Of a stretch of 64,000 nucleotides of DNA, positions 1-64,000 are shown piece by piece. A model generated the notes under the pieces. It had not been told where the DNA came from, ran no database searches, and worked only from the letters and a program-made list of their open reading frames with translations. The stretch comes from Liopterus haemorrhoidalis. Taxonomy: Eukaryota; Arthropoda; Insecta; Coleoptera; Dytiscidae. The stretch is from positions 240,584,654 through 240,648,653 of the forward strand of contig OZ020611.1 of assembly GCA_963971575.1 (NCBI GenBank). The letters are read 5' to 3'. Every line of letters begins with the position of its first letter. Within the stretch, counting starts at the first letter, position 1. A program made the position numbers and the translations under genes.

Positions 1-98
1 TTCTTGTTATTCTAACCATTTTTTTTTGTAAACAAATAATTATATGTGTGTGATTACATCAAGTCTGTCTCCTGCTAAATGTTTTGTACGATAATATA

Positions 99-757
99 AA
101 AATTGATGTGAAGTGTGAATTTTCACACATTTCAGGGTTTTGCAGGTATTTAATAACTGAATGATGATTATTTGGGATGCAAAAACAAATTTTATGTCAA
201 AATATTTTTTTATGAATTTTAATTCGAATGCCTAATACCATTATTTAAGTTTCTAATTATGTGCAGTATTTTTTTTTACATAGCAAGGTTCATTAAGATT
301 TTGAAAATTGCGCCTATAGCTTCTATTGGTTCCTTAAATCATTAGCCCCGCCCTCTGATTTCGTATACATCAAACAGAATTAAATTATAATTTCAACACT
401 TTCCACTGGTTATTAAATTTACGCTTTTAAAAATTAAATGCAACATTTACCAAAATTTAACTAGAATTTTGACAAAATAATTTAAACAAAAGAAAACTGC
501 AAAAAAAAAACAAAAAAAATAAAATTGACAGGATTCGAACTCTAGTTTGCAAGTTACCTTGTTTGACAAATTAGAAAACCAATGACTTAACGCACATCGC
601 TATGAGCGCTGACGTATTAACTTGGTTATATAGCGAATTAGATATTTAACATATTTTGGTTAAAAACACAATAAATGCATTATTTTCCGAAAACATAATC
701 TGATCAAAAATTCCTGTTGTACTATTCCGGTTCACACCAATATACATTAGAATTTTT
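99..757 (-). mobile_element. GTCT/tRNA-cassette element, copy 1 (truncated)
   Basis: Reads 3' to 5' on the plus strand. It starts with the family 3' hairpin (GTGTGAATTTTCACAC) and AGGGTTTTGCAGGTAT, then the AT-rich body and a tRNA-like segment. It stops in the block ending near the ttcacaccaa motif. The 5' part with the stem and (GTCT)n tract is missing. Identification rests on base-by-base similarity to the long copies at 1410-2427 and 28638-29771. It is non-coding. Confidence 0.85.
526..610 (-). other. tRNA-like cassette in copy 1
   Basis: On the minus strand an A-box-like TAGCGATGTGCG is followed about 60 bases later by a strong B box, GAGTTCGAATCC. The flanks match the other copies, but the segment between them does not. 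No good cloverleaf acceptor stem is seen, so this is a Pol III promoter-like module and not a functional tRNA gene. Confidence 0.6.
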
Positions 758-1409
758 TTAAACACGTTAAAATCAAGTGAGCACCCTCTCTGGGTGCGCA
801 CTTGGTAGCTCTAATTTGGTATCAATAATTTATTGGATACAAGTGCAACACTATATTGTTTTTCATTTTCTAAGATATTTAATGAATTTTATCTTTTGAT
901 AGCCCAGTTCATCAGTTGACTATACTATCGATTTCCCAATAAAAAAAAGTTGCTGTAAAGTAACTGTCTTCACGGAACATAAAACTACATCAATATTATA
1001 CAGTTTCACTGTGAAGCTCGTTTACTAAGTTATCTTCTGGGAAATTCATGAGGTCCCAGAGGGCGAGTCCACCCCTACATACACGTACGGACCCTTGTCC
1101 GCGGCTCCTTTGATCTATACCTCCCGCACTGCACAACTGTTATGGGCTTTGCGTGTAAGAAAGTTGTAAGGGTTGAATTAGGTTCAAATGAGTTATAATA
1201 AAGTTATTTAGAGAAACATTGTTACGTATGAGTCATTCTGATGGAACGATAACGCTGTGTCTTGAAGGCTTTTTAAGATGGTTCAGTCTTGCCACTTTTG
1301 TATCGATTTTTTTCTTTCAATTTCCTTAGATATCATCTGAGCATATTCGTGAGAAATACTATCGCCCAAACCTTACCTTACGATATCATTTTTTTAGTCT
1401 ATATTTAGA
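758..1409. other. No gene recognised
   Basis: AT-rich sequence without a convincing coding frame. A short stretch at about 788-806 (ctctgggtgcgcacttg) recurs with one change at about 43986-44003, suggesting a shared relic end. Nothing else can be supported. Confidence 0.5.
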
Positions 1410-2427
1410 AAAAATTGATGTGAAGTGTGAATTTTCACACATTTCAGGGTTTCGCAGGTATTTAGTAAGTGAATGATGATTATTTGGGATACCAAAACAA
1501 ATTTTATATTTAAATATTTTTTTTGTTAATTTTAATTCGAATGCCTAATACTATTTATTTAGGTTTCTAAATATGTGCAGTATTTATTTTTTATATAACA
1601 AGGTTCATTAAGATTTTAAAAATTGCGCCTATGGCTTCCATTGGTTCTTTTAAGTCATAACTCCGCCCCTCTGATTTCGTGTATTCAATTTCAACAATTT
1701 CCACTGGTTATTAAATTTACGCTTTTAAAAATTAAATGCAATATTTGCCAAAATATAGCTACAACTTTGAAAAAATAATTTAAACAAAATAAAAATGCAA
1801 AAAAAACAGAAAAAATAAAATTATCTCAAGACCGGAGCGAAACTTAGTTTGCAAATTATAACGCGAGCATGCTGACCATTACACTATCAGAGCATGCTGG
1901 TTTACTTTGTTACATAAGTTATTAAGTATATGGTCAAGCAAAAAACACAAAAAATGCGTTATTTTCCGAAAACATAATCTGATCAAAAATTTCTGTTATA
2001 ATATTCCGGTTCACATCAATGTACATTACATAGAACTTTTTCAGATTTGTAGTTTAAACCATCTGGGCTACAGGGTGCGGGACAAAAAATTTTTGCACAA
2101 TTTCGCGTCTAACAATTTATTTTGCAAAAATTATATTTTGATCGTTAATCCACGTACTAAGGGCTTTCATTTCATACCCTACTCAGAATTTTAAAAACAT
2201 ATTTTTTTTTTCGATGAACACATAGTTGTTTATATTTTTAGGGGGATATGTTTTTTAGTTGTTTTAGTATTTTTTCTATGTGCGGGTCAAAGAGTTGTAT
2301 AAGCATGCCAAATTTCAACTCAAGTTTAGCCGTTTAGCTACAATTTTTACCGAACAGACAGACAGACAGACAGACTACAAAATGACGGAATAAGGGTTTT
2401 ATGGTTATACCTACAAAACCCTAAAAA
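1410..2427 (-). mobile_element. GTCT/tRNA-cassette element, copy 2 (full length)
   Basis: About 1.0 kb, minus orientation. The 3' end is at low coordinates: the TTGATGTGAAGTGTGAATTT hairpin region, then TTTCAGGGTTTCGCAGGTAT. The 5' end at about 2427 has a short (GACA)n tract, then a region pairing AAGGGTTTT with AAAACCCT. Both ends carry the same AGGGTTTYGYAGGTAT in inverted orientation. It is non-coding; a 95-codon frame inside it recurs as shadow frames in other copies and is attributed to shared repeat sequence. Confidence 0.88.
1822..1896 (-). other. tRNA-like cassette in copy 2
   Basis: On the minus strand TAGTGTAATGGTCAGCATGC resembles a tRNA D-arm and A box. The B box is degenerate (AAGTTTCGCTCC). 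It differs from all other cassettes apart from the A-box core, while both flanks are conserved. Confidence 0.6.
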
Positions 2428-8719: not shown

Positions 8720-10028
8720 CAAGGTGTCTCAAAAGAAATTTTATATTTATTTAGCTTACTGCGTGAACGCAACGTATCCGAGGGGCGCGGGGGTTATGTC
8801 AATCGGTAGCCTGGCTCTTGGGAATTCAGTCGCTATGGAGCGTTTCTCGGGAGCAGACCGCGCGTTATGCGTGCGAGAGTTTTACAAAAACGGTGATTCG
8901 GCGACTGTTCGCGTAGAAAATTCTGCAGTATTCGAGGTTTTCACCACTTAAATGATGCGCCAAGCATTCCTCTCAGTCGACATTGGGTTAAAAAGTTTGA
9001 AGAGACTGGTACAACGCTGGATAAATCAAAATCCGTGCGACCTAGGTCATCAAGAACGGTAGAAAACGTGGAGAATGTTAATCAGTCTGTTCGTGACGAC
9101 CCGAACCTTTCAATTCGGAAGCGCGCAAGTGCTTTAAATGTGCATAGATCATCATTACATCGCATTATGCACAAAGACCTAAAGCTGCACCCCTACAAAA
9201 TTCAATTGGTGCAAGAATTAAAGCCCCAAGATGCCAGTCAGAGGCTTAATTTCGTAAATCAGATGATTGAGCGATTTTCAACGTTTACCAACATTTTGTT
9301 TTCGGATGAAGCTCATTTTTATCTTAATGGCCACGTAAATAAGCAGAACTGCCGCTACTGGAGTGCAACGAATCCGAAACGCAAATATCAGAAACCCCTA
9401 CATTCGCCTAAAGTGACCGTATGGGCTGCGATGTCGGCGCGAGGAATTATCGGCCCTTACTTTTTTGAAGACGAAAGGGGGCGTGCAGTTACAGTGAATT
9501 CAGAGCGTTATGTGGAGATGTTAGACAACTTCTTGGTACCTGAACTGCAAAACTTTCCTGGCTATAACCAAAGAACATGGTTCCAACAGGACGGAGCAAC
9601 TTCACACACGTCCAATATGTCTCTGCCACGTGTTCGTGAAATTTTCTCAGGCAAATTGATCTCCCGGAGAGGTGACATAAATTGGCCTCCACGCAGTCCA
9701 GATTTAACCCCTATGGACTTTTTCCTATGGGGTTATCTTAAATCTAAAGTTTACGCCAATAAACCGACTTCACTGGCGCATTTGAAAGAAAATATCCGTC
9801 ACGAAATAGCAGCCATCCCTGAGTCCACCTGTCGAGACGTCATAAGTAATTTTACTGTTCGATTAAATGAGTGCCGAGAACGCGAGGGTCTACATTTAGA
9901 CGATATTATTTTTAAGAAATAAATCCCCAAAAAGTGTATTTTAATAATTAATAAACATTTTTTCTATGTACGGCTTACTTTTTTTTTAATCGATCCACTA
10001 AATATAAAATTTCTTTTGAGACACCTTG
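8720..10028 (+). mobile_element. DD41D (rosa-type) mariner, copy 1
   Basis: TIRs begin CAAGGTGTCTCAAAAGAAAT at 8720 and its reverse complement ends at 10028, about 30 bp and nearly perfect. TA duplications lie at 8718-8719 and 10029-10030. It interrupts the minus-strand LINE, whose reading resumes cleanly on each side. A second copy of the family is at 40842-42161. Confidence 0.92.
8835..9922 (+). pseudogene. Transposase of DD41D mariner, one frameshift from intact
   Basis: ATG at 8835 gives MERFSGADRALCVREFYKNG. The frame breaks at about 8908, where the copy at 42049 reads on as ATVARRKFCSIRGFR. The downstream frame is open to the stop at 9922 (..DDIIFKK). It contains helix-turn-helix text (IRKRASALNVHRSSLHRIMH), the first catalytic Asp (ILFSDEAHFYLNG), the second (FQQDGATSH) and the third (TPMDFFLWGYLK). 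I count 41 residues between the second and third Asp, matching the rosa (DD41D) group. All three catalytic residues are kept. The single visible lesion suggests recent activity. Confidence 0.9.
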
Positions 10029-11175: not shown

Positions 11176-11421
11176 AGGGTTTTGTAGGTATGACCAAAAA
11201 AACCCTTATACCGTCATTTTGTCGTCTGTCTGTCAGATTATGTTTTCGGGAAATAACGCATTTTTTGTGTTTTTTGGTTGACGATTTACAAAAGTTATAG
11301 TTATGTAACACACCATGCTAGAAAACGTATCATGGTGTAATGGTTAGCATACTCGCTAGCTACCCAGAATTCTAGGTTCGCTAACGGAAACAATTTTATT
11401 TTTGTTGTTTATTCCATTTTT
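11176..11421 (+). mobile_element. GTCT/tRNA-cassette element, copy 3a (deleted)
   Basis: Starts AGGGTTTTGTAGGTATGACC preceded by Ts. A short GTCT run is fused directly to the CAGATTATGTTTTCGG block, so most of the body is deleted. It then has the cassette and the attttatttttgttgttt flank, and runs straight into a second 5' end at 11422. Confidence 0.85.
11326..11392 (+). other. tRNA-Glu-like cassette in copy 3a
   Basis: TGGTGTAATGGTTAGCATAC (A-box region) is followed by CTCGCT.. and ACCCAGAA..TAGGTTCG, the order seen in insect tRNA-Glu. The 3' half of the B box is lost. The same cassette, nearly identical, is present at 11709-11779. Confidence 0.65.
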
Positions 11422-12280
11422 AGGGTTTTGTAGGTATGATCAAAAAACCCTTATACCGTCATTTTGTCGTCTGTCTGTCTGTCTGTCTGTTCGGTAAAAA
11501 TTGTAGCCAAACGGCTAAACTTAGAGAGTTGAAATTTGGCATGCTTATACAACTCTTTGACCCGCACATAGGAAAAATACTAAAACATCTAAAAAACATA
11601 TCCCGCTAAAAATATAAACAAATATGTGCTCATCGAAAAAAAAAAAAAAATTTTTGGTTGACAATTTACAAAAGTTATAGTTATGTAACACACCATACTA
11701 GAAGACGTATCATGGTGTAATGGTTAGCATACTCGCTAGCTACCCAGAATTCTAGGTTCGCTACATGTCAGAGGAGACAATTTTATTTTTGTTGTTTTTT
11801 TTTCATTTTCATTTTATTTAAATTATTTTGTCAAAATTCTAGTTATATTTTGGCAAATGTTGCATTTATTTTTTAAGAGCGTAAATTTAATATCCAGTTG
11901 GTACGTTGGAATTATATTTTCATTCTATGTGTCCTGTATACGAAACCAAAGGGGCGGAGCATATGACAACCAATGGAAGCCATAGGCGCAATTTTCAAAA
12001 TCTTAATGAATTTTGCTATATAAAAAAATACTACACATATTAAGAAACCTAAATAATGGTATTAGGTATTCGAATTAAAATTAACAAAAAAATATTTTAT
12101 CATAAAATTTATTTTTAAAGTTCTTAGATTCACAGACGATAAACTATTTTAAACATATCGTTCATTTTGCCGTGATTACTACAAAGCAAAATTTGTCCTA
12201 CACACTCAGCATGCCGCCTTCACTTATTATATACCTGCGAAACCCTGAAATGTGTGAAAATTCACGTTTCACATCATTTT
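11422..12280 (+). mobile_element. GTCT/tRNA-cassette element, copy 3b (internally deleted)
   Basis: A 5' stem, (GTCT)n at 11467-11493, and the ggcatgcttatacaactctt body follow each other. A deletion at the A-run near 11637-11652 joins the body to the cassette leader. The 3' part has the bases tgtcctacacactcagcatg, also found in copy 5, and ends with the hairpin and cacatcatttttt at about 12280. Copies 3a and 3b share one cassette, so they probably arose as a tandem duplication. Confidence 0.87.
11709..11779 (+). other. tRNA-Glu-like cassette in copy 3b
   Basis: Same sequence as 11326-11392, with a slightly longer 3' part ending in gaggagaca. That 3' border motif is shared with the otherwise unrelated cassettes of copies 6 and 7, so it marks the junction between cassette and common body. 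Confidence 0.65.
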
Positions 12281-12437
12281 TTCAGGACTACTTAGCCTAT
12301 TAGAATAGTTTATTTGTTTCTATTCTGTTTTTTATTTTTATTTTTATTTCTATTTTTATTCTAATATATTCATTTAATTACGATACAAGTGACAGCGTAC
12401 GAATATTACATTCGTTAAATGGATGCTATGTAGACGT

Positions 12438-16329: not shown

Positions 16330-17475
16330 GGATCACTGCCCATACAAAACTTAATAATTGGTTTATTAAAGCCGAAAATTTTTTTTAGACTAAACAATGT
16401 AGGAGAATTTTAAAAATTCAAACCTCAGATTTATATCCCTAACCATTTTTTAGTAAGAATTTATCAAAAATTTAAAAAATTAAAAAAAAAATTGAAAATT
16501 TTCAACAAATTATTGTTTCAAAATCTGGTTACAAGTCAATTAGGGCCTCAAGATTCCAAAAATTTCAACCGCAGGTCTTTATCGTATTTCGTTTTTGAGA
16601 TACGTCCATGCGAAAGTGAAAATTTCTATAAATTACGCCATATTAAAATTTATCATATTTTTAAAATACGCAAAACGAATAAGGCCTCAAATTTTTTCTA
16701 TACTAAATAAACTACGAGAAATCCAAAAATTCTAACCGCAGATCGCTATCTCTAACCGTTTTTGAGTTGTTTTTTTTTTTAATTCACGGTTTTCACAATG
16801 TAAATTATTTCATTAAAAAAAATTGTAGTAATCTCAAAACACGTTAAACGATTAAAGCCCGAAATTTTTTCTAGACTAAATAAACTACGAGGAATCCAAA
16901 GATTTTAACCGCTGATCGCTATCTTAAACCGTTTATGAGTTGTGATTTTTTTTTTAATTCACAATTTTCACAAATAATGTAAATTATGCCATTAAAAAAA
17001 TTGTCGTAATTTCAAAACTCATTAAACGATTAAGACCCCAAATATTTTCTAGACTAAATAAACTACGAAGAATACAAAAATTCGAACCGGAAGTCTCTGT
17101 CTAACCGTTTTTGGGTTGTGCTTTTTTTTCATTCACAATTTTCACAAATAATATAAATTATGCCATTAAAAAAATTGTCGTAATCTCAAAACGCGTTAAA
17201 CGATTAAAGCTCCAATTTTTTTCTAGACTAAATAAACTACGGAGAATTCAAAAATTCTAACCAGAAGTCTCTGTCTCTAACCGTTTTTGGGTTATGCTTT
17301 TTTTAATTACCAATTTTCACAAATAAAATAAATTATGCCATTAAAAAAATTGTCGTAATCTCAAATCGCTTTAACGATTAAAGCCACAAATTTTTTCTAG
17401 ACTAAATAAACCACGGAGAATCCAAAAATTTCAACCGCAGATCGCTATCTTTAACCGTTTATGAATTGTGATTTT
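16330..17475. repeat. Tandem array, ~174-bp unit
   Basis: The landmark actaaataaac(t/c)ac recurs at about 16702, 16875, 17053, 17227 and 17401, spacing 173-178 bp. Each unit carries a ttaacgattaaagcc block, a nnaaccgcagatcgctatct block and a ttgtcgtaatctcaaa block. Upstream units (16330-16690) are more diverged. It looks like a small satellite or an amplified element body. No coding frame persists across units. Confidence 0.8.
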
Positions 17476-18299
17476 TTAAAATTATCATTACCTTTCACCT
17501 GCCTACTACCTATTTACCACCTACTTAGAAACTACCTTTCCACCTACCTAGGTACCAAGATCTTGAAGTCACTTTCTGAATTTTCTTCTCAAGTGATTTT
17601 TCTAATTTCGACCGCAAACTCGTCTCAAGTGATCTTCTGTGACACTCATTTTAATTTTATATATACACAATCTCAAGTTTATGTTTCCAGAATCCATTAA
17701 AATGATACATCTGAGGCAATATTTCCAATATTAAGCGTATTAATAAACTACATATTGTCCAAAATGGCTGAATGGATGATATTGACTTGATATATATGTA
17801 CTTATCTGGACATCTTCTTTCAAAATTATTCGTGTGATGTAGAGAATTAACAAATAAATAAATAACTGCTTTAATATAAATATTTTTATATAATAATAGT
17901 TTTGGCATAAAGTGGATCTTTAAACAACTCAAATCTTAAATAATACTTATTACATGTCACATATTTATCAAAATAGCATCTTGACCTTCGATGACATAAA
18001 ACATTCTATAAGATATATTGACACCTGCTGCCCCCTATTAATATATTAAAAACTAATGAACTTGCACCTCTGACCTTCGTAGACATCAAAATAATTCCTA
18101 AATTTCTTGAAACAATGATTCCTGCTGCCACCAATTTTAAATTCTGGAATTAATGCAACTGACGGATATATACGAATAATAACGATCAAAAATTCGTTTT
18201 ATTATCAATTAACAGGATTAAATGACGTAGTATGTGAACTGATTAGTTAAATCGGTGATCTAATTCCCTAATCTTAATCTGAGAACTAGAGCAGATTAA
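17476..18299. other. No gene recognised
   Basis: AT-rich sequence with chance frames only. Two loosely similar lines near 17980-18080 (tgaccttcg..gacat, cctgctgcc) hint at an old duplication of about 85 bp. Confidence 0.35.
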
Positions 18300-19075
18300 G
18301 TGAAAACTAGTTCAAATGGCTATAATTCCCTTATTTATGAACCGATTTTAAAAAGCATCACACTTCTGGACTCAGATCATCAAGGTGCTTCTGTTAGTAC
18401 CCTTAAAAGTGCAAAATTCGGACTTCGACAAAAAATTCTGCTCCAGTTTCCGCCGAAAGTGGAGCACGGCTATAACTCGCTTATTTATGGACCGATATCG
18501 CTGAGATTTGGCACAGGGGTTACAATACTGAGAATTCAAAAAAACACATCCCGAGATAAATATAAACATTTATATATTTAATAAGAACATAAATATATTT
18601 TTAAAATGTTGAGTGGCATACCAAATGAAACCTCTTAAAGCTTGAATCAACAACCAAAATTATTTGAAAAATCAATTTTTTTATGGAATTTTTGCTAAAA
18701 ATATGTAAAAAAACTTTTGTCGCCAACTCTCAGAGGGGTTGTTCTAAAAAACTGAAAAAATCTCCATAATGAACATAGATGGGAACCGGAATTTTAAATC
18801 AGGTTAGATTTTCGAAAAATGTCGTTTTTTTTGAGTACTCGATAAAAAAAAAATATTTTTTAAAAATATTGTTTGGTATCAAAAGAAACGTCTTAGGACG
18901 TAGATTATGGAACGAAAAGTAATATTTTAAAATTGTTTTTTTAAAAACGATTTTAGACAAAAATTTGCTAAAAAAGTTTTTGTTCCACCCCATTTTACCA
19001 AACGAGGTTAAACTAAAAATCTGAATAAATTATAGGTAATGTACATCCGATTACGTTTTTGAAACATTTTGCAGT
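18300..19075 (+). repeat. Two tandem diverged relatives of the GTCT-element body
   Basis: The block order matches the family body: a pre-body with cacatcccgagataaatata, then ggcataccaaatgaaacctc, an atttttgctaaaaat stretch, a ttttgtcgccaac counterpart, then gaacatagatgggaaccgga. It repeats with ggtatcaaaagaaacgtctt, tttttgttccaccccatttt, ttaaactaaaaatctgaata and gtacatccgatta. No (GTCT)n tract or hairpin is seen. It may represent an ancestral or sister family. Confidence 0.5.
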
Positions 19076-28637: not shown

Positions 28638-28683
28638 AGGGTTTTGTAGGTATGACAAAAAAACCCTTATACCGTCATTTTGT

Positions 28684-28684
28684 C

Positions 28685-28764
<80 letters not shown>

Positions 28765-28765
28765 T

Positions 28766-28798
<33 letters not shown>

Positions 28799-28799
28799 T
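28684..28799 (+). repeat. (GTCT)n microsatellite in copy 4
   Basis: About 29 GTCT units with two interruptions (tgtttgtc and ctttctg). Other copies have 3-18 units at the same place, so the tract is a fixed structural part of the element that changes in length. Confidence 0.95.
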
Positions 28800-29278
28800 C
28801 GGTAAAAATTGTAGTCAAACGGCTAAATTTAGAGAGTTGAAATTTGGCATGCTTATACAACTCTTTGACCCGCACATAGGAAAAATACTAAAACATCTAA
28901 AAAACATATCCCCCTAAAAATATAAACAAATATATGCTCATCGAAAAAAAAATATATTTTTTTACAATTCTGTGTAGGGTATCAAATGAAAGCCCTTGGT
29001 ACGTGGATTAACGATCAAAATTTTATTTTTGCAAAATAAATTATTTTGAGGCGATTTTTGCCAAAATTGTGCAAAAAAAATTTTGTCCCACACCCTTTAG
29101 CCCAGATGGTTTAAACTAAAAATCTGAAAAAAATCTCAGTAATGTACATTGGTGTGAACCGGAATAGTACAACAGGAATTTTTGATCAGATTATGTTTTC
29201 GGAAAATAACGCATTTTTTGTGTTTTTAAGTAAAATATGTAATATATTTAATCCGCTATTTAACATACTAAACGAGTG

Positions 29279-29352
29279 ATCCTGTATAGCACAGTGGTAG
29301 TATTGTCGCTTAGTGAGTTGAAAATACTAAGAAACTGTGTTCGAATCCCGTC
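29279..29352 (+). other. tRNA-like cassette in copy 4
   Basis: A box TAGCACAGTGG at 29287-29297 and B box GTGTTCGAATCCC at 29337-29349, about 40 bases apart, both near consensus. This is the best-preserved Pol III promoter pair of the set. The leader ttaatccgctatttaacata is shared with copy 7 (cassette 1) and loosely with copy 1, while the cassettes themselves differ. Confidence 0.7.
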
Positions 29353-29887
29353 AATTTTAATTTTTTCAGTTTTTTTTTGCATTTTTATTTTGTTTAAATT
29401 ATTTTGCCAAAATTCTAGTTATATTTTGGTAAATGTTGCATTTAATTTTTATAAACGTAAATTAAATAACCAGTGGGAAGTTTTGAAATTTTAATTTAAT
29501 TCTATATTTGAAGGTATCAGAGGGCGAGGCTTATGATTTAAGCAACCAATGGAAGCCATAGGCGCAATTTTCAAAATCTTAATGAACCTTGCTATATAAA
29601 AAATACTGCACATATTTAGAAACTTAAATAATGGTATTAGGCATTCAAATTAAAATTTATAAAAAAATATTTTGACATAAAATTTGTTTTGGCATCCCAA
29701 ATAATCATCACATAGTTAATAAATACCTGCGAAATCCTGAAATGTGTGAAAATTCACACTTCACATATTTTTCTTTTTTGAGTAATCCAGTAAGTATTAT
29801 TGGGGCCCCTGGGGGCCTACGTACGGCCGGGCCTAGAATTTCTCCAATTTTTAATGAGAGTATTTTTTCCAGTCCCGGTATTTTTAT

Positions 29888-32636: not shown

Positions 32637-33165
32637 CAGAACTTTTAAAACACAATTTATTTTTAGGTGGTTTATAAAAAAAAAAAAATAAACAGTTATC
32701 AACCATAACCTAAGATAGTGCTTTTAAGGTGAATCACTGTCTCTAGCCCTGCACAGAACAGTTAAAATACAATTTATTTTTAGGTGGTTTATAAAAAAAA
32801 AAAAAAAACAGTTATCAACCATAACCTAAGATAGTGCTTTTAAGGTGAATCACTGTCCCTAGCCCTGCACAGAACAGTTAAAATATAATTTATTTTTAGG
32901 TGGTTTATAAAAAAAATAAAATAAACTGTTATCAACCATAACCTAAGATAGTGCTTTTAAGGTAGGGTGACCATCCGTCCCGGTTTTCGGTCAATTGTCC
33001 CGGTTTTTGAATCTCTTTGCTTTTCATTTTGAATCTGAGTGGTGAGGACTTTTTTTTTTTTGCTCTTCACTTTAAATTTGTGGAGGTGAGAGGACCTTTT
33101 TTTTTTTCCTGTGTCCCGGTTTCCCTTCACTGAAATCTGGTCACCCTATTTTAAGGTGAATCTAA
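32637..33165. repeat. ~117-bp tandem array, three units, third one interrupted
   Basis: Units start at about 32637, 32754 and 32870 (agaac..ttaaaa..caattta, tttttaggtggtttataaaa, cagttatcaaccataaccta, gtgcttttaaggtgaatcac). Units 1 and 2 show the intact gtgcttttaaggtgaa site. In unit 3 a MITE is inserted at that site. Confidence 0.85.
32963..33148. mobile_element. hAT-like MITE, 186 bp, with empty sites next door
   Basis: TIR TAGGGTGACCA at the left and TGGTCACCCTA at the right. The 8-bp duplication TTTTAAGG lies at 32955-32962 and 33149-33156. The neighbouring tandem units carry a single TTTTAAGG, proving the insertion. Subterminal cccggttttcgg/cccggtttccc motifs and the ttgctcttcactt module are present. 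Confidence 0.92.
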
Positions 33166-42539: not shown

Positions 42540-42765
42540 GTTTAAACGGACAACCCGTAGCGTATGTGTTAAGGGCCCAAAAAAAAAAAAAAATAAAATA
42601 AATAATAACTACTGGGTTTGCCGGTCGCTATGGCGTAGTGGTCAGCTCATTTGACTACTAACCATGGGGACTCGGGTTCGAATCCCGGTGATGGCATGGA
42701 TGTTTGTATTTGCCATAAAATTACTAATTTATTCAAAATAAAAATAAAGATATACTGGTTAATGG

Positions 42766-51024: not shown

Positions 51025-51940
51025 AGGGTTTTGTAGGTATGACCAAAAAACCCTTATACCGTCATTTTGTCGTCTGTCTGTCTGTCTGTCTGTCTGTTCG
51101 GTAAAAATTGTAGCCAAACGGCTAAACCTAGAGAGTTGAAATTTGGCATGCTTATACAACTCTTTGACCCGCACATAGGAAAAATACTAAAACATCTAAA
51201 AAACATACCCCCCCTAAAAATATAAACAAATATGTGCTCATCGAAAACAAAAATATTTTTTTTAAATTTTGAGTAGGGTATCAAATGAAAGCCCTTAGTA
51301 CGTGGATAAACGATCAAATTTTTATTTTTGCAAAATAAATTATTTTGATGGGATTTTTGCCAAAATTGTGCAAAAAAAAATTTGTCCCACACCCTGTAGC
51401 CCAGATGGTTTAAACTAAAAATCTAAAAAAATTCTAAGTAATGTATATTGGTGTGAACCGAAATAGTACAACAGGAATTTTAGATCAGATTATGTTTTCG
51501 GAAAATAACGCATTTTTTGTGGTTTTTGGTTCACAAAGTACAAAAGTTATACTAATGTAAAACAATCACATGCGTACGATAGCGTAATGGGTTAGAGCAC
51601 TGGTGTCGTAAGTTAAAATGCGCTGGAAACGAAGGGTTTCGAGTTCGAGTACGGAGTGAATTTTATTTTTTCTTTTTTTTTGTATTTTTATGATGTTGAA
51701 ATTATTTTGTCAAAATTCTAGTCATATTTTGACAAATGTTGTATTTAATTTTTAATAGCGTAAATTTAATAACCAGTCTTATTATATGATTAACAGACGA
51801 TAAATTATTTTAAAAATATCTTTCATTTTGCCGTGATTACTACAAAGTAAAATTTGTCCTACACACTCAGCATACCGCCTTCACTTATTATATACCTGCG
51901 AAACCCTGAAATGTGTGAATATTCACACTTCACATCAATT
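51025..51940 (+). mobile_element. GTCT/tRNA-cassette element, copy 5, with empty-site partner
   Basis: Begins AGGGTTTTGTAGGTATGACC after a T-run and ends with hairpin TGTGTGAATATTCACAC, then ttcacatcaatt. Comparison with the uninterrupted locus at 25385-25415 (cctttttttt then aaataaaa) shows insertion between T residues with no duplication. (GTCT)n is at 51071-51099. The body after the cassette is shorter than in copy 4 and shares the tgtcctacacactcagcat block with copy 3b. Confidence 0.92.
51572..51659 (+). other. tRNA-like cassette in copy 5
   Basis: A box TAGCGTAATGGGTTAGAGCA at 51580-51599 and B box GAGTTCGAGTAC at 51641-51652. The spacer includes gctggaaacgaagggtttc, absent from every other cassette. 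The leader caaaagttatactaatgtaa matches copies 3, 6 and 7. Confidence 0.65.
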
Positions 51941-52411
51941 TTTTTAAATAAAAAATAAAAAAAAAATAAAAAATAAAAGAATGTTTTCCAAAATTTAATT
52001 AATTACATATAGAACTTGTATTTTATCATAATTCTCAAACTTATAATTTATTTATTTAATTTATTTTTATCTATAAAATTTTAATAAAATGTAATTGTAT
52101 TTCCAGCTCTGAAAATGGCTGAAGCATGTTTTTACTCCCACCAAGCAAGAAAGAGTTTACTGGTCGCTGATTGGTTAATTTAAACTTAAAATTCAAATAT
52201 CTGAATGATGCTAAATGTATTACCTACTTGAAAAATCGTAAGGACATATTTTGTAAAAAGACCTTGAAAAAGACAAAATAGGAAAGTATCTGCAAAAAGT
52301 ACCTGAAATACAGATACTTAGATACTGATTTAAATATCTAGATACAGATACAGATACATATTTTAAAATGTACCTAGATACATTACAACACTGATGAGGG
52401 ATACATTTATA

Positions 52412-56188: not shown

Positions 56189-57182
56189 AATTGATGTGAA
56201 GTGTGAATTTTCACACATTTCAGGGTTTTGCAGGTATTTAGTAAGTGAATGATGATTATTTGGGGTGCCACAACAAATTTTATGACAAAATATTTTTTTA
56301 TGAATTTTAATTCGAATGCCTATTACCATTATTTAAGTTTTCAAAGATGTGCAGTATTTTTTTTTTATATATCAAGGTTCATTAAGATTTTGAAAATTGC
56401 GCCTATGGCTTCCATTGGTTGTTTTTAGTCATAGCTCCTCCCCTTTGATTTCGTGTACATTCAAATATATAATTAAATTATAATTTCAACAATTTCCACT
56501 GGTTATTAAATTTACGCTATTAAAAATTAAATGCAACAATTGTCAAAATATAATTAAAATTTTGAAAAAATAATTTAAACAATATAAAAATGCAAAAAAT
56601 AAATAAAAAATAATATTGTCTCCTCACGTAGGACTCGAACATGAGTCCGATTACGAATTCTTGGACAGAACGCAAGTATCTTAGCCACAGCACCAAGAAA
56701 CACGTTACTGTTGAGCGTATTATATAACTATAAGTTGTCAACATTATTAGCAAAAAAACACAAAAAATGCTTTTTTTTCCAAAAACATAATCTGATCAAA
56801 AATTCCTGTTGAACTATTCCGGTTCACACCAATGTACATTACTTAGAATTTTTTCAGATTTTTAGTTTAAACCATCTGGGCTACAGGGTGTGGGACAAAA
56901 TTTTTTTTGCACAATATTGGCAAAAATCGCTTCAAAATAATTTATTTTGGAAAAATAAAAATCTGATCGTTAATTCACGTACCAAGGGCTTTCATTTGAT
57001 ACCCTACTCAGAATTAAAAAAAAATACTTTTTTTTTTCGATGAGCACATATTTGTTTATATTTTTAGGTGGATATGTTTTTTAGATGTTTTGGTATTTTT
57101 CCTATGTGCGGGTCAACGAGTTGTATAAGCATGCCAAATTTCAACTCTCTAGGTTTAGCCGTTCGGCTACAATTTTTACCGA

Positions 57183-57220
<38 letters not shown>

Positions 57221-57267
57221 GACAAAATGACGGTATAAGGGTTTTTTGGTCATACCTACAAAACCCT
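56189..57267 (-). mobile_element. GTCT/tRNA-cassette element, copy 6 (full length)
   Basis: 3' hairpin end at 56191 (ttgatgtgaagtgtgaattt), 5' stem at 57230-57267 (ataagggttttttggtcata then cctacaaaaccct). (GACA)n at 57184-57224. It interrupts a LINE coding sequence that continues on the other side without an obvious target duplication, only T/A residues at the joint. Confidence 0.9.
56618..56700 (-). other. tRNA-like cassette in copy 6
   Basis: Minus strand: A box TGGTGCTGTGGCTAAGATAC, B box ATGTTCGAGTCCTAC, then gtgaggagacaat, the 3' border shared with copies 3 and 7. The middle (ttctgtccaagaattcgtaa) is unique. Confidence 0.65.
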
Positions 57268-58530: not shown

Positions 58531-60317
58531 GTACAGGAAATGAAGCATTTTGGCTCGCAATATTTTCGTCCAGCATGGAATTACGTGAAATTTTCACAGA
58601 AGGTAGGGAATAGACCAAGGATCATTTTCTACATCATGCCGGTGTACGCTAAAACCTTGGGGGTGGTTGCCACCCCATCTCGGGGGTGAAAATTTTTTAC
58701 TACATTTTAACTATAGGAATCGATGGGAAAAGTAATTCTAAGAAATAAATGTTCATTACGTTTTCTTCGTAAAACTAATATTTTTTGAGTTATTCGCGGT
58801 TGAAAGTAACAGTTATTCGACGAAAAAATCGATGTTTTTAAAAAGTTTTTTGCGAATAACTCGAAAAATATGCATTTTATCAAAAAAACTGTAGAAAGCA
58901 AAATTGTAGCTTTTAAAAAAGAAAACAAAATACTTTTTTTATTATTTTTTTACGACTAATACGAACCGAGATACGGCATGTTAATGGTTAACTTTTTTCG
59001 CCAAATGCATAATTTGAAAGATTCAAAGTCAAATAACAGGAAAAATTTGCATTTTTCGAGGAAAACTCATTGAATCTTTTTTAAAGTATTTGATTAGACC
59101 TTTCAAACAAAAAGAAAAAAAAGTCTCTAGCATAAAAATTAAGCGACTTATGATCAAAATAAGGTCGGTACCTACTTTTTTCTACGAAAAAATCAGTGAA
59201 AACAACCCCCTATTTACCCCCCTAATTAAAATTGATCCTCACCCTTCTGTGGTTCTCTTCATATATGTATTTTCAGTACACCCAAGAAGTTTGACCAATT
59301 TAAAATGCCTAATTTTAGAAAAATTGGAGTTTAAAGAAAAAACGATTTTTTGCGATTTCGTATTTTTCACCCTTTTCTTCAAAATATCTCCGAAATTACT
59401 GGAGATACGAAAAAAATTATAGAGCACTAAATTGTAGCTTTTCTAATTACTTAAATTTCCCTGTGCATATATTTTCTGTACAGTGAATATTTGGCGAGAT
59501 ATAGCCGTTTAAAACCTCTATTTACAAGCGAACACCACCTTATTCGAGCCCTTCAAACTCACCCCATTTAAAAACTAAAGGATCTTAAGGAATTTAATTT
59601 ACATAGTCTTATAGCTCTTGAAAAGCCCTACAAAATCGTTTTTGTAAAAACTTTCTATCACTAAAAATGAAGGAGCTATGTTTAAAAAACCAATAAATTT
59701 TTTTTCGAAACATTGGAATAGCACGGTTCGGAGCGATTTTTTTTATATCAAGCTCTAACAAGGGTGGGTTTTTAAGGGTTGAAACATTATAAATTGTATT
59801 CCAAAGCATGAAACAATCATTATTCAACTAATCCAAACCAAATTTTACCCATCTTAAGGTTTACAACGTTATTTTATAATTTTAGATAATTAGGGGTAGT
59901 TTTCACCCTTAAAAAATAAACGGTGCCCATGAGCATGATATAAAATTTGAAGTAGAGGGTGAGACGAACCTAATTTTAAATTTTGGTGCAAATCGATGCA
60001 AGATGAAATCATTTTTTAATCCAACAAGGGTGGATTTTTAAAGGTTGAAACATTATGAAATTGTATTCTAAAGCATAAAACGATCCATATTTAGCTATCC
60101 AAACCAAATTTTACCCATATTAAGGTTTAAGATGATATTTTATAATTTTTTACAATTAGGGGTAGTTTTCACCCTTAAAAAACAAAAAGCGTACAACGGC
60201 AAAATGTAGAAAATGAACTAGAGGGTGAAATGATCCTAATTCCAAATTTTTATCCAAATCGATGCTGGACGAAAAAATTGCGAGGTTTTGTCATTTTTTG
60301 AGCTTCATTTCCTGTAC
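58531..60317. mobile_element. Unknown 1.8-kb non-coding element, copy 2 (inverted)
   Basis: Reverse-complement partner of 53875-55681 over its whole length, with small indels. Ends GTACAGGAAATGAAGC and GAAGCTCAAAAAATGACA-type counterpart are present, with TA at 58529-58530 and 60318-60319. The opposed copies enclose 2.85 kb holding the LINE and copy 6. Confidence 0.88.
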
Positions 60318-62247: not shown

Positions 62248-62677
62248 AATTTATGTGAAGTGTGAATTTTTACACATTTCAGAGTTTCGCAGGTATTTAG
62301 TAAGTAAATCATGATTATTTGGATGCCAAAACAAATTTTATGTTAAAATATTTTTTTATTAATTTTAATTAGGATGCCTAATACCATTATTTGGGTTTCT
62401 AAATATTTGCAGTATTTTTTTTTATATAGCAAGGTTCATTAATACTTTGAAAATTGCGCCTACGGCTTCCATTGGTTGCTTAAGTCATAAACTCCGCCCC
62501 TCTGATTTCGTATACATTCAAACATAGAATTAAATTATAATTTCAACACTTCCCACTGTTTATTAAATTTACGCTTTTAAAAATTAAATGCAACATTTGC
62601 CAAAATATAACTAGAATTTTGACAAAATAATTTAAACAAAATAAAAATGAAAAAAAAAAAACATAAAAAATAAAAAT

Positions 62678-62745
62678 TGGCGGGAATTTAACAGTAGTTT
62701 GCAACTTACGAAGCGAGAACGTTACCACTGGACTACGGACGTTCA
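62678..62745 (-). other. tRNA-like cassette 1 in copy 7
   Basis: Minus strand: A box TAGTCCAGTGGTAACGTTCT, typical of a tRNA D-arm. The B box is decayed (CTGTTAAATTCCC). The leader tccgctatttaacacagtaa is shared with copy 4. Confidence 0.6.
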
Positions 62746-62839
62746 CTCGTTTACTGTGTTAAATAGCGGATTAAAAGCCAAATATAACTAGAATTTTGAA
62801 AAAATAAAAATGCAAAAAAAGAACAGAAAAAATAATATT

Positions 62840-62925
62840 GTCTCTTCTGGCAGGGTTCGATCCCTTTTGGATCGAGTTACTAGGGTGAAACGCCAGCGCC
62901 AAAACCACTACACCAGCATACATGT
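62840..62925 (-). other. tRNA-like cassette 2 in copy 7
   Basis: Minus strand: A box TGGTGTAGTGGTTTTGGCGC, B box GGGATCGAACCCTG. The B-box region also reads as a good B box on the plus strand (GGGTTCGATCCC). The 3' border gaagagacaat matches copies 3 and 6. Confidence 0.65.
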
Positions 62926-63392
62926 TCCAGTGTAGCGTGTTACAAAGCTATAACTTGTGTACATTATTAGCCAAAAATCACAAAAAATGCGTTTTTTTCC
63001 AAAAACGTAATCTGATCAAAAATTACTGTTGTACTATTCCGGTTCACACCAATGTACATTACTTAGAATTTTTTCAGATTTTTAGTTTAAACCATCTGGG
63101 CTACAGGGTGTGGGACAAAAATTTTTTTGCACAATTTTGGCAAAAATCGCTTCAAAATAATTTATTTTGCAAAAATAAAAATTTGATCGCTAATCCCCGT
63201 ACCTTTCATTTGATACCCTACTCAGAATTATAATATTGTTTATATTTTTAGGGGGATATGTTTTTTAAATGTTTTAGTATTTTTACTATGTGCGGGTCAA
63301 AGAGTTGTATAAGCATGCCAAATTTCAACTTTCTAGGTTTAGTCGTTTGGCTACAATTTTTACCGAACAGACAGACAGACAGACAGACAGAC

Positions 63393-63436
<44 letters not shown>

Positions 63437-63486
63437 GACAAAATGACGGTATAAGGGTTTTTTGGTCATACCTACAAAACCCTAAA

Positions 63487-63570: not shown

Positions 63571-63574
63571 ATGG

Positions 63575-63876
63575 GCTACAGGGTGTGGGACAAAATTTTT
63601 TTTGCACAATTTTGGCAAAAATCGCTTCAAAATAATTTATTTTGCAAAAATAAAATTTTGATCGTTAATCCACGTACCAAGGGCTTTCATTTGATACCGT
63701 ACACAGAATTGTAGAAAAATATTTTTTTTTCAATGAGCATATATTTGTTTATATTTCTAGGGGGATATGTTTTTCAGATGTTTTAGTATTTTTCCTATGT
63801 GCGCGTCAAAGAGTTGTGTAAGCATGTCAAATTTCAACTCCTTAGGTTTAGTTGTTTAGTTACAATTTTTAACCGA

Positions 63877-63910
<34 letters not shown>

Positions 63911-63912
63911 CG
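63575..63912 (-). mobile_element. GTCT/tRNA-cassette element, copy 8 (partial)
   Basis: Contains the gggctacagggtgtgggaca, accaagggctttcatttgat, aagcatgtcaaatttcaact and (GACA)n (63883-63912) blocks. After the repeat it departs from the family (catcataaaaatagtcaaaa) and lacks the usual 5' stem. The remaining sequence to 64000 is not recognised. Confidence 0.8.
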
Positions 63913-64000
63913 ACAGACATCATAAAAATAGTCAAAACGTTATGTAGGGACCACATTTCGTGGAGATCTATCGAAATCTCGAAATGTCAAAATCGGTATG

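Follow-up and report, generated by a model that had tools for sequence, protein, structure and literature searches.

At the locus considered here several copies of one repeat lie close together, alike at their ends and over much of their bodies, and differ at one internal place; what is it that varies there, and why does it vary between surroundings that are kept? The sequence is a 64,000-bp stretch of the Liopterus haemorrhoidalis genome (C1:240584654-240648653 of the assembly, which comprises 1.02 Gb in 91 contigs), hereafter called the window. A reading of its letters alone (the sequence-only reading) had proposed a Helentron-like family whose copies each carry a different tRNA-like cassette.

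Copies of the element and their ends

A BLAST search with the copy starting at 28638 as the query revealed eight copies or fragments of one non-autonomous element in the window, with the main matches being 82–95% identical, at the positions from which the family had been reported. The (GTCT)n tract and the common ends described by the sequence-only reading recur across the copies, as does the variable segment claimed for a fixed internal place in seven of them, which together hold nine cassettes, two apiece in the 11176/11422 and 62248 copies. The number of eight was right but not the description of all as long, since the 63575 copy is a left-body fragment without a cassette, the 99 copy lacks its 5′ end, the right body of the 51025 copy has diverged, the 11176/11422 copy is nested or tandem and the 62248 copy is chimeric. 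The features, in positions of the window, are:

28638..29771, + strand, copy A, complete; AGGG starts at 28638 behind a T-run; genomic copies of the same type are 93–97% identical
28638..28653, + strand, copy A, 5′ subterminal inverted repeat AGGGTTTTGTAGGTAT
28681..28798, + strand, copy A, (GTCT)n microsatellite
28797..29227, + strand, copy A, left body, about 430 bp
29228..29378, + strand, copy A, variable segment: about 46 bp upstream, the cassette and a T-rich tail
29287..29297, + strand, copy A, A box TAGCACAGTGG; 9/9 of the pattern, identical letters in L002
29338..29348, + strand, copy A, B box TGTTCGAATCC; 9/10 of the pattern, identical letters in L002
29361..29366, + strand, copy A, T-run seen in the sequence, putative Pol III terminator
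29379..29771, + strand, copy A, right body
29723..29738, + strand, copy A, 3′ subterminal inverted repeat ATACCTGCGAAATCCT
29744..29759, + strand, copy A, 3′ palindrome GTGTGAAAATTCACAC
98..760, − strand, copy B, 5′ part missing; variable segment 501–661
1410..2422, − strand, copy C; variable segment about 1799–1940
11176..12281, + strand, copy D, nested or tandem pair with 5′ ends at 11176 and 11422 and two closely similar cassettes
51025..51943, + strand, copy E; variable segment about 51527–51681; right body diverged from the A type
56189..57267, − strand, copy F; variable segment about 56594–56753
62248..63483, − strand, copy G, chimeric: G1 cassette (about 62828–62973), a right-body piece, then G2 cassette (62677–62755)
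63572..63919, − strand, copy H, left-body fragment without a cassette
18524..19046, + strand, distant relative of the left body, 71–73% identity; by eye no cassette recognised downstream

The 5′ end of the element is a T-run followed by AGGGTTTTGTAGGTATGACC and then by CCGTCATTTTGTC(GTCT)n, and the 3′ end in its typical form reads ATACCTGC[GA]AAACCCTGAAATGTGTGAAAATTCACACTTCACATCAATTTTT. The variable segment, mostly 140–165 bp in length, is bounded on the left by ...TTGTGTTTTT and on the right by GCATTTTTATTTTGTTT... The pattern of the subterminal inverted repeat (subTIR) gave 28 matches in the sampled sequence, 23 of which are 5′ ends (a count including L001, which is window copy A again, and L005 and L006 with their common flank). 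All 23 stand behind five or more T, and for 17 of them a 3′ end with the subTIR, the palindrome and the T-run was also found. The palindrome is exact in 13 of these 17 3′ ends and has one change in the other four, lying about 10 nt before the final T-run; compared with the reverse complement of the 3′ repeat, the 5′ subTIR agrees at 14–15 of 16 positions in most copies and at 13 of 16 in copy A.

Subterminal inverted repeats of about 11–15 bp, a GTCY microsatellite, a 3′ stem-loop and T-rich borders form the HINE/DINE-1 layout as given in passages of PMC2374699 and PMC4067079, and the present repeat has subTIRs near both ends, a 3′ palindrome and a GTCY-type microsatellite behind the 5′ subTIR. 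Set against those descriptions, the anatomy supports the term Helentron-like used by the sequence-only reading, as well as the conclusion that the repeat is a non-autonomous element of DINE-1/HINE (Helentron) anatomy.

The genome contains 91 Helitron_like_N matches, many of them inside open frames of >1,000 codons, so proteins of that broad kind exist. An autonomous partner with the same ends was not found at the one locus sampled, on contig C14, where the left piece is still within an open frame and does not reach the element end, and the right piece has no such end and gave just short AT-rich BLAST matches. On this contig, a Helitron_like_N match has a 2492-codon frame, and upstream of the match, in L063 (C14:13003200-13005200), lies open frame, perhaps part of the same one, that by eye resembles a cysteine-protease domain with tandem repeats of some 20 residues behind it. 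An exact 33-base pattern of the element had 0 matches in viral contigs.

Older relatives of the left-body end were seen at L022:3848-3957, L022:4134-4249, L015:8887-8973, L016:1444-1535 and L027:2516-2596 with a search model restricted to the last 130 bp of the left body, the window relative at 18524–19046 matching over more than that. In all of them, the window relative included, the left-body end is followed by other sequence in which no cassette was recognised by eye, and at L022:3500-4000 such a relative is joined to a similar 3′ end. Among its other features the window has an open frame of 341 aa at 8897–9922 (+ strand), by eye resembling a mariner-type transposase, and tandem arrays at 16673–17477 (174-bp unit), 32637–32963 (116 bp) and 59757–60265 (266 bp).

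The abundance was estimated from an unselected sample of 21 stretches of 10 kb each, placed at round coordinates blind to matches (16 from a set of 20, plus 5). Seven of the 21 stretches hold a cassette-bearing copy, i.e., one per 30 kb, which extrapolates from these 21 stretches to about 34,000 cassette-bearing copies genome-wide (Poisson range roughly 14,000–70,000). At seven such copies in 64 kb, the density in the window is higher than in this sample.

Subfamilies and their promoter boxes

When the A, G, C and E copies served as queries, the matches listed included many copies that align through the cassette. Candidates run to thousands, of which each copy list covers at most 40 that were scored; the genomic copies used from the matches listed are 12 of 39 for A, 10 of 39 for C, 4 of 4 for G1, 6 of 35 for G2 and 6 of 39 for E, with L001 excluded from the counts as the same copy as window A. 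Assignment to a subfamily followed the search that had retrieved the copy and inspection by eye. One cassette is common to 13 A copies among those fetched, and likewise to 11 C, 5 G1, 6 G2 and 7 E copies (the window copies being included for A, C, G1 and E), which rules out a unique cassette in each copy. The idea of a different cassette per copy is true of subfamilies and not of individual copies, and it arose because the window holds about one member each of several subfamilies.

Two observations on duplicated copies may be added here. Six A-type copies of near-equal identity and coverage lie within 0.55 Mb at C1:244109313-244660000, spaced 57–216 kb apart, which suggests that a large block has been duplicated there; the end of the contig is about 2 Mb away. 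The cassette and the left flank of L005 (contig C9) and L006 (contig C1) are identical on two chromosomes, and this copy seems to sit inside a longer duplicated stretch.

For comparison of the cassettes 15 types were defined, eight of which represent the nine window cassettes and seven come from elsewhere in the genome; type A is represented by the genomic copy L002, and of the two type D cassettes the second was taken. The best ordered pair of A box and B box scores 14–18 of 19 in these types, and in 14 of the 15 the boxes, taken in order and at their spacing, do better than dinucleotide shuffles at p ≤ 0.05 (L010 has p = 0.08), figures that do not amount to 15 independent tests because several types are closely related. 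This comparison rules out boxes arising by chance in AT-rich DNA. Internal A and B boxes are a feature that the cassettes have in common with tRNA-derived SINEs. The A-to-B spacing is 42–46 in seven types, 52–56 in another seven and 61 in B, and the segments of the cassette types inspected have a T-run behind the B box, the segment of L010 ending early.

Between types the A boxes are 0.68 and the B boxes 0.66 identical, against 0.48 and 0.46 in shuffled cores with re-picked boxes (60 sets), and the stretch between the boxes is 0.54 identical against 0.41 in shuffles. Judged by the shuffles, conservation within the cassette is highest in the boxes, and the remainder keeps some common ancestry. 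The sequence-only reading had the cassettes matching in the boxes only, and it is the "only" that has to be given up, in view of both the inter-box identity and the cassette groups being partly common with those of the 46 bp upstream.

The likeness to tRNA extends to the promoter boxes and not to a tRNA recognised by covariance model. At the gathering cut-off no cassette in the whole window was matched, and permissive tRNA covariance scans of the A, C, G1, G2, E and L034 cassettes gave no tRNA match, so that the cassettes scanned do not score as tRNA genes. Calls made by ARAGORN under relaxed settings were scattered all over the elements and were discarded as uninformative. No conserved RNA fold was found, the fold z-scores ranging from −1.7 to +1.5 and the longest perfect stems summing to 66 compared with 68.6 ± 3.9 in shuffles, with a 7-bp stem in a single type, G1, at a nominal p = 0.044. 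Stem sums and z-scores rule out a conserved fold as well as local hairpins from template switching. The cassettes are promoter boxes, not tRNAs.

The sole Rfam tRNA match at the gathering cut-off in the window is at 42624–42696 (+ strand, 34.6 bits), called tRNA-Ser with anticodon ACT by ARAGORN, and is perhaps a pseudogene or a SINE head.

Where the element changes and how the cassette is inherited

Over 58–70 bp of the left flank, A, C and G2 have one and the same consensus, with cores 59–70% alike. For A and C the consensus identities are 1.00 in the left flank, 0.67 upstream, 0.59 in the core and 0.97 in the right flank, and for A and E they are 0.97, 0.54, 0.56 and 0.95, respectively. A and G2 show 0 differences at 100 flank positions, and in the core they differ at 12 of the 75 positions aligned and by a further 15 gap columns; these equal-length counts replace the left consensus values against G2 (0.76–0.83), which are an artefact of the shorter 58-bp G2 piece. 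The seven unselected copies (21 pairs) gave mean identities of 0.91 on the left, 0.65 upstream, 0.55 in the core (0.49 when shuffled) and 0.74 on the right, the last being lowered by the poor right bodies of L010 and L029. Cassettes diverging at the pace of their flanks, the outcome against which the sequence-only reading had set its proposal, were not seen: between subfamilies the cores diverge far more than the flanks.

Within subfamilies (12 of 13 A rows were used, one duplicate being dropped) the rate of private change at non-CpG positions is 0.021 in the left flank, 0.019 in the right flank, 0.034 upstream and 0.039 in the core. The core excess, about twofold over the flanks, reaches its maximum in C and is not seen in G2; its persistence without CpG rules out CpG decay as the source of core change. 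When fixed changes were compared with private ones, the odds ratio for the core exceeded 1 in all 10 subfamily pairs and reached p < 0.05 in five, the four pairs with G1 and the pair C–E not being significant; the pairs are not independent, the small subfamilies (5 and 6 copies) have rough consensuses, and the private counts come from the rate table with slightly different core borders. This is good but not conclusive evidence that change is concentrated in the core in the source lineages.

The same pattern might arise without any special turnover if the source lineages were old, the cassette evolving neutrally and the body being held by purifying selection for transposition. The subfamily copies are young (flank private rate about 2%) and their consensus cores are merely 50–70% identical, which agrees with such a history, as does the right body, which is not constant everywhere: its middle in E and L022 is only 30–60% identical to A. 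The left body fits less well. It is alike over its full 430 bp and not patchy, at 82–100% identity to L002 per 40-bp bin in eight of the 12 copies from other types (the remaining four being truncated, chimeric or carrying a diverged stretch), and the remote relative shows that it is able to drift to 71–73%. A non-autonomous rolling-circle element is expected to require just its ends. Moreover, in the five nearest pairs the core has diverged more than its own 46 bp upstream, as judged by eye from the trees. We regard old lineages as a somewhat unlikely explanation.

The distances of the upstream part and of the core are correlated over the 15 types (rho 0.30, Mantel p = 0.003). In the comparison of cassette with body suggested by the sequence-only reading, the core showed rho 0.01 with the left body (p = 0.41; 14 types, D having no left part) and rho 0.17 with the right body (p = 0.07); the left result may be noise, as left differences are mostly private and the left parts of B and L034 are truncated or chimeric. 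Upstream and core trees agree on the pairs E/L022, G1/L020 and D/L010, and both hold A, B, G2, L027, L029 and L034 on one side; they disagree on C and E/L022, which switch sides, and on G2, which joins A upstream and L029 in the core. Two chimeras were found, namely window 62248–63483, made of a G1-type and a G2-type piece, and L034, in which an E-like upstream part is joined to a second left body bearing another cassette. An upstream–core correlation together with no left–core correlation fits one inherited segment that moves between backbones, with the weak left signal as a caveat, and exchange between copies, one of the ideas of the sequence-only reading, gains some support from the chimeras and from the left–core value, noisy as the left signal is.

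Its other idea on origin, capture of tRNA genes, fares worse. Had each subfamily arisen by capturing its own tRNA gene or tRNA-derived repeat, independently and at a common hot spot, the spacings could reflect the sources: tRNAs without and with a long variable arm differ in length, and the A-to-B spacings of 42–46 and 52–56 resemble the two kinds. Some cores also look by eye like tRNA-Glu. On the other hand, the permissive scans found no tRNA in the six cassette types, the upstream and core distances are correlated, and no free cassette outside an element was found in about 350 kb (15 queries; a small sample, the tandem G2 apart). The missing tRNA matches, the absence of a kept structure and the upstream–core correlation make repeated tRNA-gene capture unlikely.

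Hypermutation alone, in which Pol III transcription of many copies raises mutation at the cassette without selection or exchange, is improbable. That transcription-associated mutagenesis increases mutation at the flanks of tRNA genes is stated in a passage of PMC8113476, which cites Thornlow (2018) for it; this serves as a precedent, to which the private rate of the core, about twice that of the flanks, would correspond. From a twofold rate, however, one would not expect A and G2 to have 12 substitutions at 75 core positions and none in the flanks (p = 0.0003), and selection would still be required for the conservation of the boxes. A twofold higher mutation among copies does not suffice alone as the cause of the fast core change.

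A tRNA-derived SINE inserted once in the ancestral element and decaying since, with boxes as functionless remnants, would match SINE heads in general, which are likewise boxes without a kept tRNA fold, and a single insertion is compatible with the upstream–core correlation, but under functionless decay the boxes would not stand out, as they do, from the remaining core in their conservation between types, making this account very improbable.

The reading we prefer, with a probability of about one half, is that an old tRNA-derived Pol III promoter lies in the centre of a Helentron-type element, its boxes and terminator being kept and the rest diverging fast and moving between backbones. The ancestral segment would have been single, probably acquired long ago from a tRNA gene or a tRNA-derived repeat, and inherited at its fixed place. 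In source copies selection would act mainly on the two boxes, on the distance between them and on the T-run as terminator, and we think, judging by the sequence, that the segment is retained for recruiting TFIIIC and Pol III there. Selection on the Pol III boxes only, as the sequence-only reading had put it, is the better of its two ideas, the boxes being the most conserved part and no RNA structure being kept.

Substitutions and indels would accumulate in the remaining cassette far faster than in the body, and the segment could be transferred between backbones via recombination or template switching among copies. Fast divergence and such movement would leave each subfamily with its own cassette in a near-constant body. 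The fast change may reflect relaxed constraint, transcription-linked mutation (transcription of active copies may increase the local mutation rate), escape from small RNAs, or exchange. TFIIIC and Pol III on the boxes are predicted to give a short RNA of roughly 90–100 nt, or the boxes might simply keep the middle of the element open; either could help source copies to persist or to be mobilised in trans by the Rep-helicase of a Helentron, possibly through chromatin that is open to rolling-circle initiation or through an ability to resist silencing.

A bolder version, tentative and rather doubtful, makes the internal Pol III promoter part of the transposon's own machinery and places the transcribed stretch under diversifying turnover, with cassettes traded like alleles. 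Boxes and terminator would then stay fixed and most else would be replaced in each new successful lineage, for example as a way of outrunning small-RNA silencing.

Known systems and the variable centre

The closest likeness is to DINE-1/INE-1 of Drosophila, for which passages of PMC2374699 describe conserved end blocks A and B with a GTCY-rich microsatellite in block A, subTIRs, a 3′ stem-loop, a TT insertion preference and a centre that differs between species and is apparently non-homologous. That centre consists of repeats and varies between species; the one described here carries A and B boxes, and its variation is between subfamilies within a single genome. In the same passages DINE-1, with the yakuba copies named, is reported without Pol III signals. 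HINEs likewise have subTIRs near both ends, a 3′ palindrome, T-rich borders, no coding capacity and, in some copies, microsatellites, according to parts of PMC4067079, the main text of which does not contain the word tRNA.

With tRNA-derived SINEs the element shares a Pol III-type head, and SINEs also include related families with different tRNA sources (as covered in part of PMC5063351) and families with a common 5′ part and other tails (in part of PMC3272025). The difference lies in the position: a SINE promoter is the 5′ head of a retroposon, and the promoter here is central in a DNA element with Helentron-type ends, the cassette of copy A being about 600 bp inside it. A Pol III gene within an annotated Helitron has a parallel in the Arabidopsis tRNA-Cys cluster, discussed in passages of PMC10701932 as possibly the first capture of a non-coding RNA. 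It differs in being one cluster, over which prediction tools gave no reliable Helitron, and no variable cassette is described for it in those passages.

The sequence-only reading knew of no described family with this property, a statement to be qualified, because conserved end blocks around a centre that is non-homologous between species are already known from DINE-1, as far as the relevant passages of PMC2374699 go. The combination seen here, in which the variable centre of a Helentron-type element is a Pol III promoter, was not found in the open-licence literature, nor were published Pol III boxes in such an element.

DINE-1 is the highest-copy repeat of Drosophila melanogaster, as the title of PMC4067079 has it, and why such elements have differing centres but constant ends is apparently unexplained. 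With a recognisable signal in the centre the question becomes testable, and the thousands of copies in dated subfamilies could separate selection, transcription-linked mutation and exchange.
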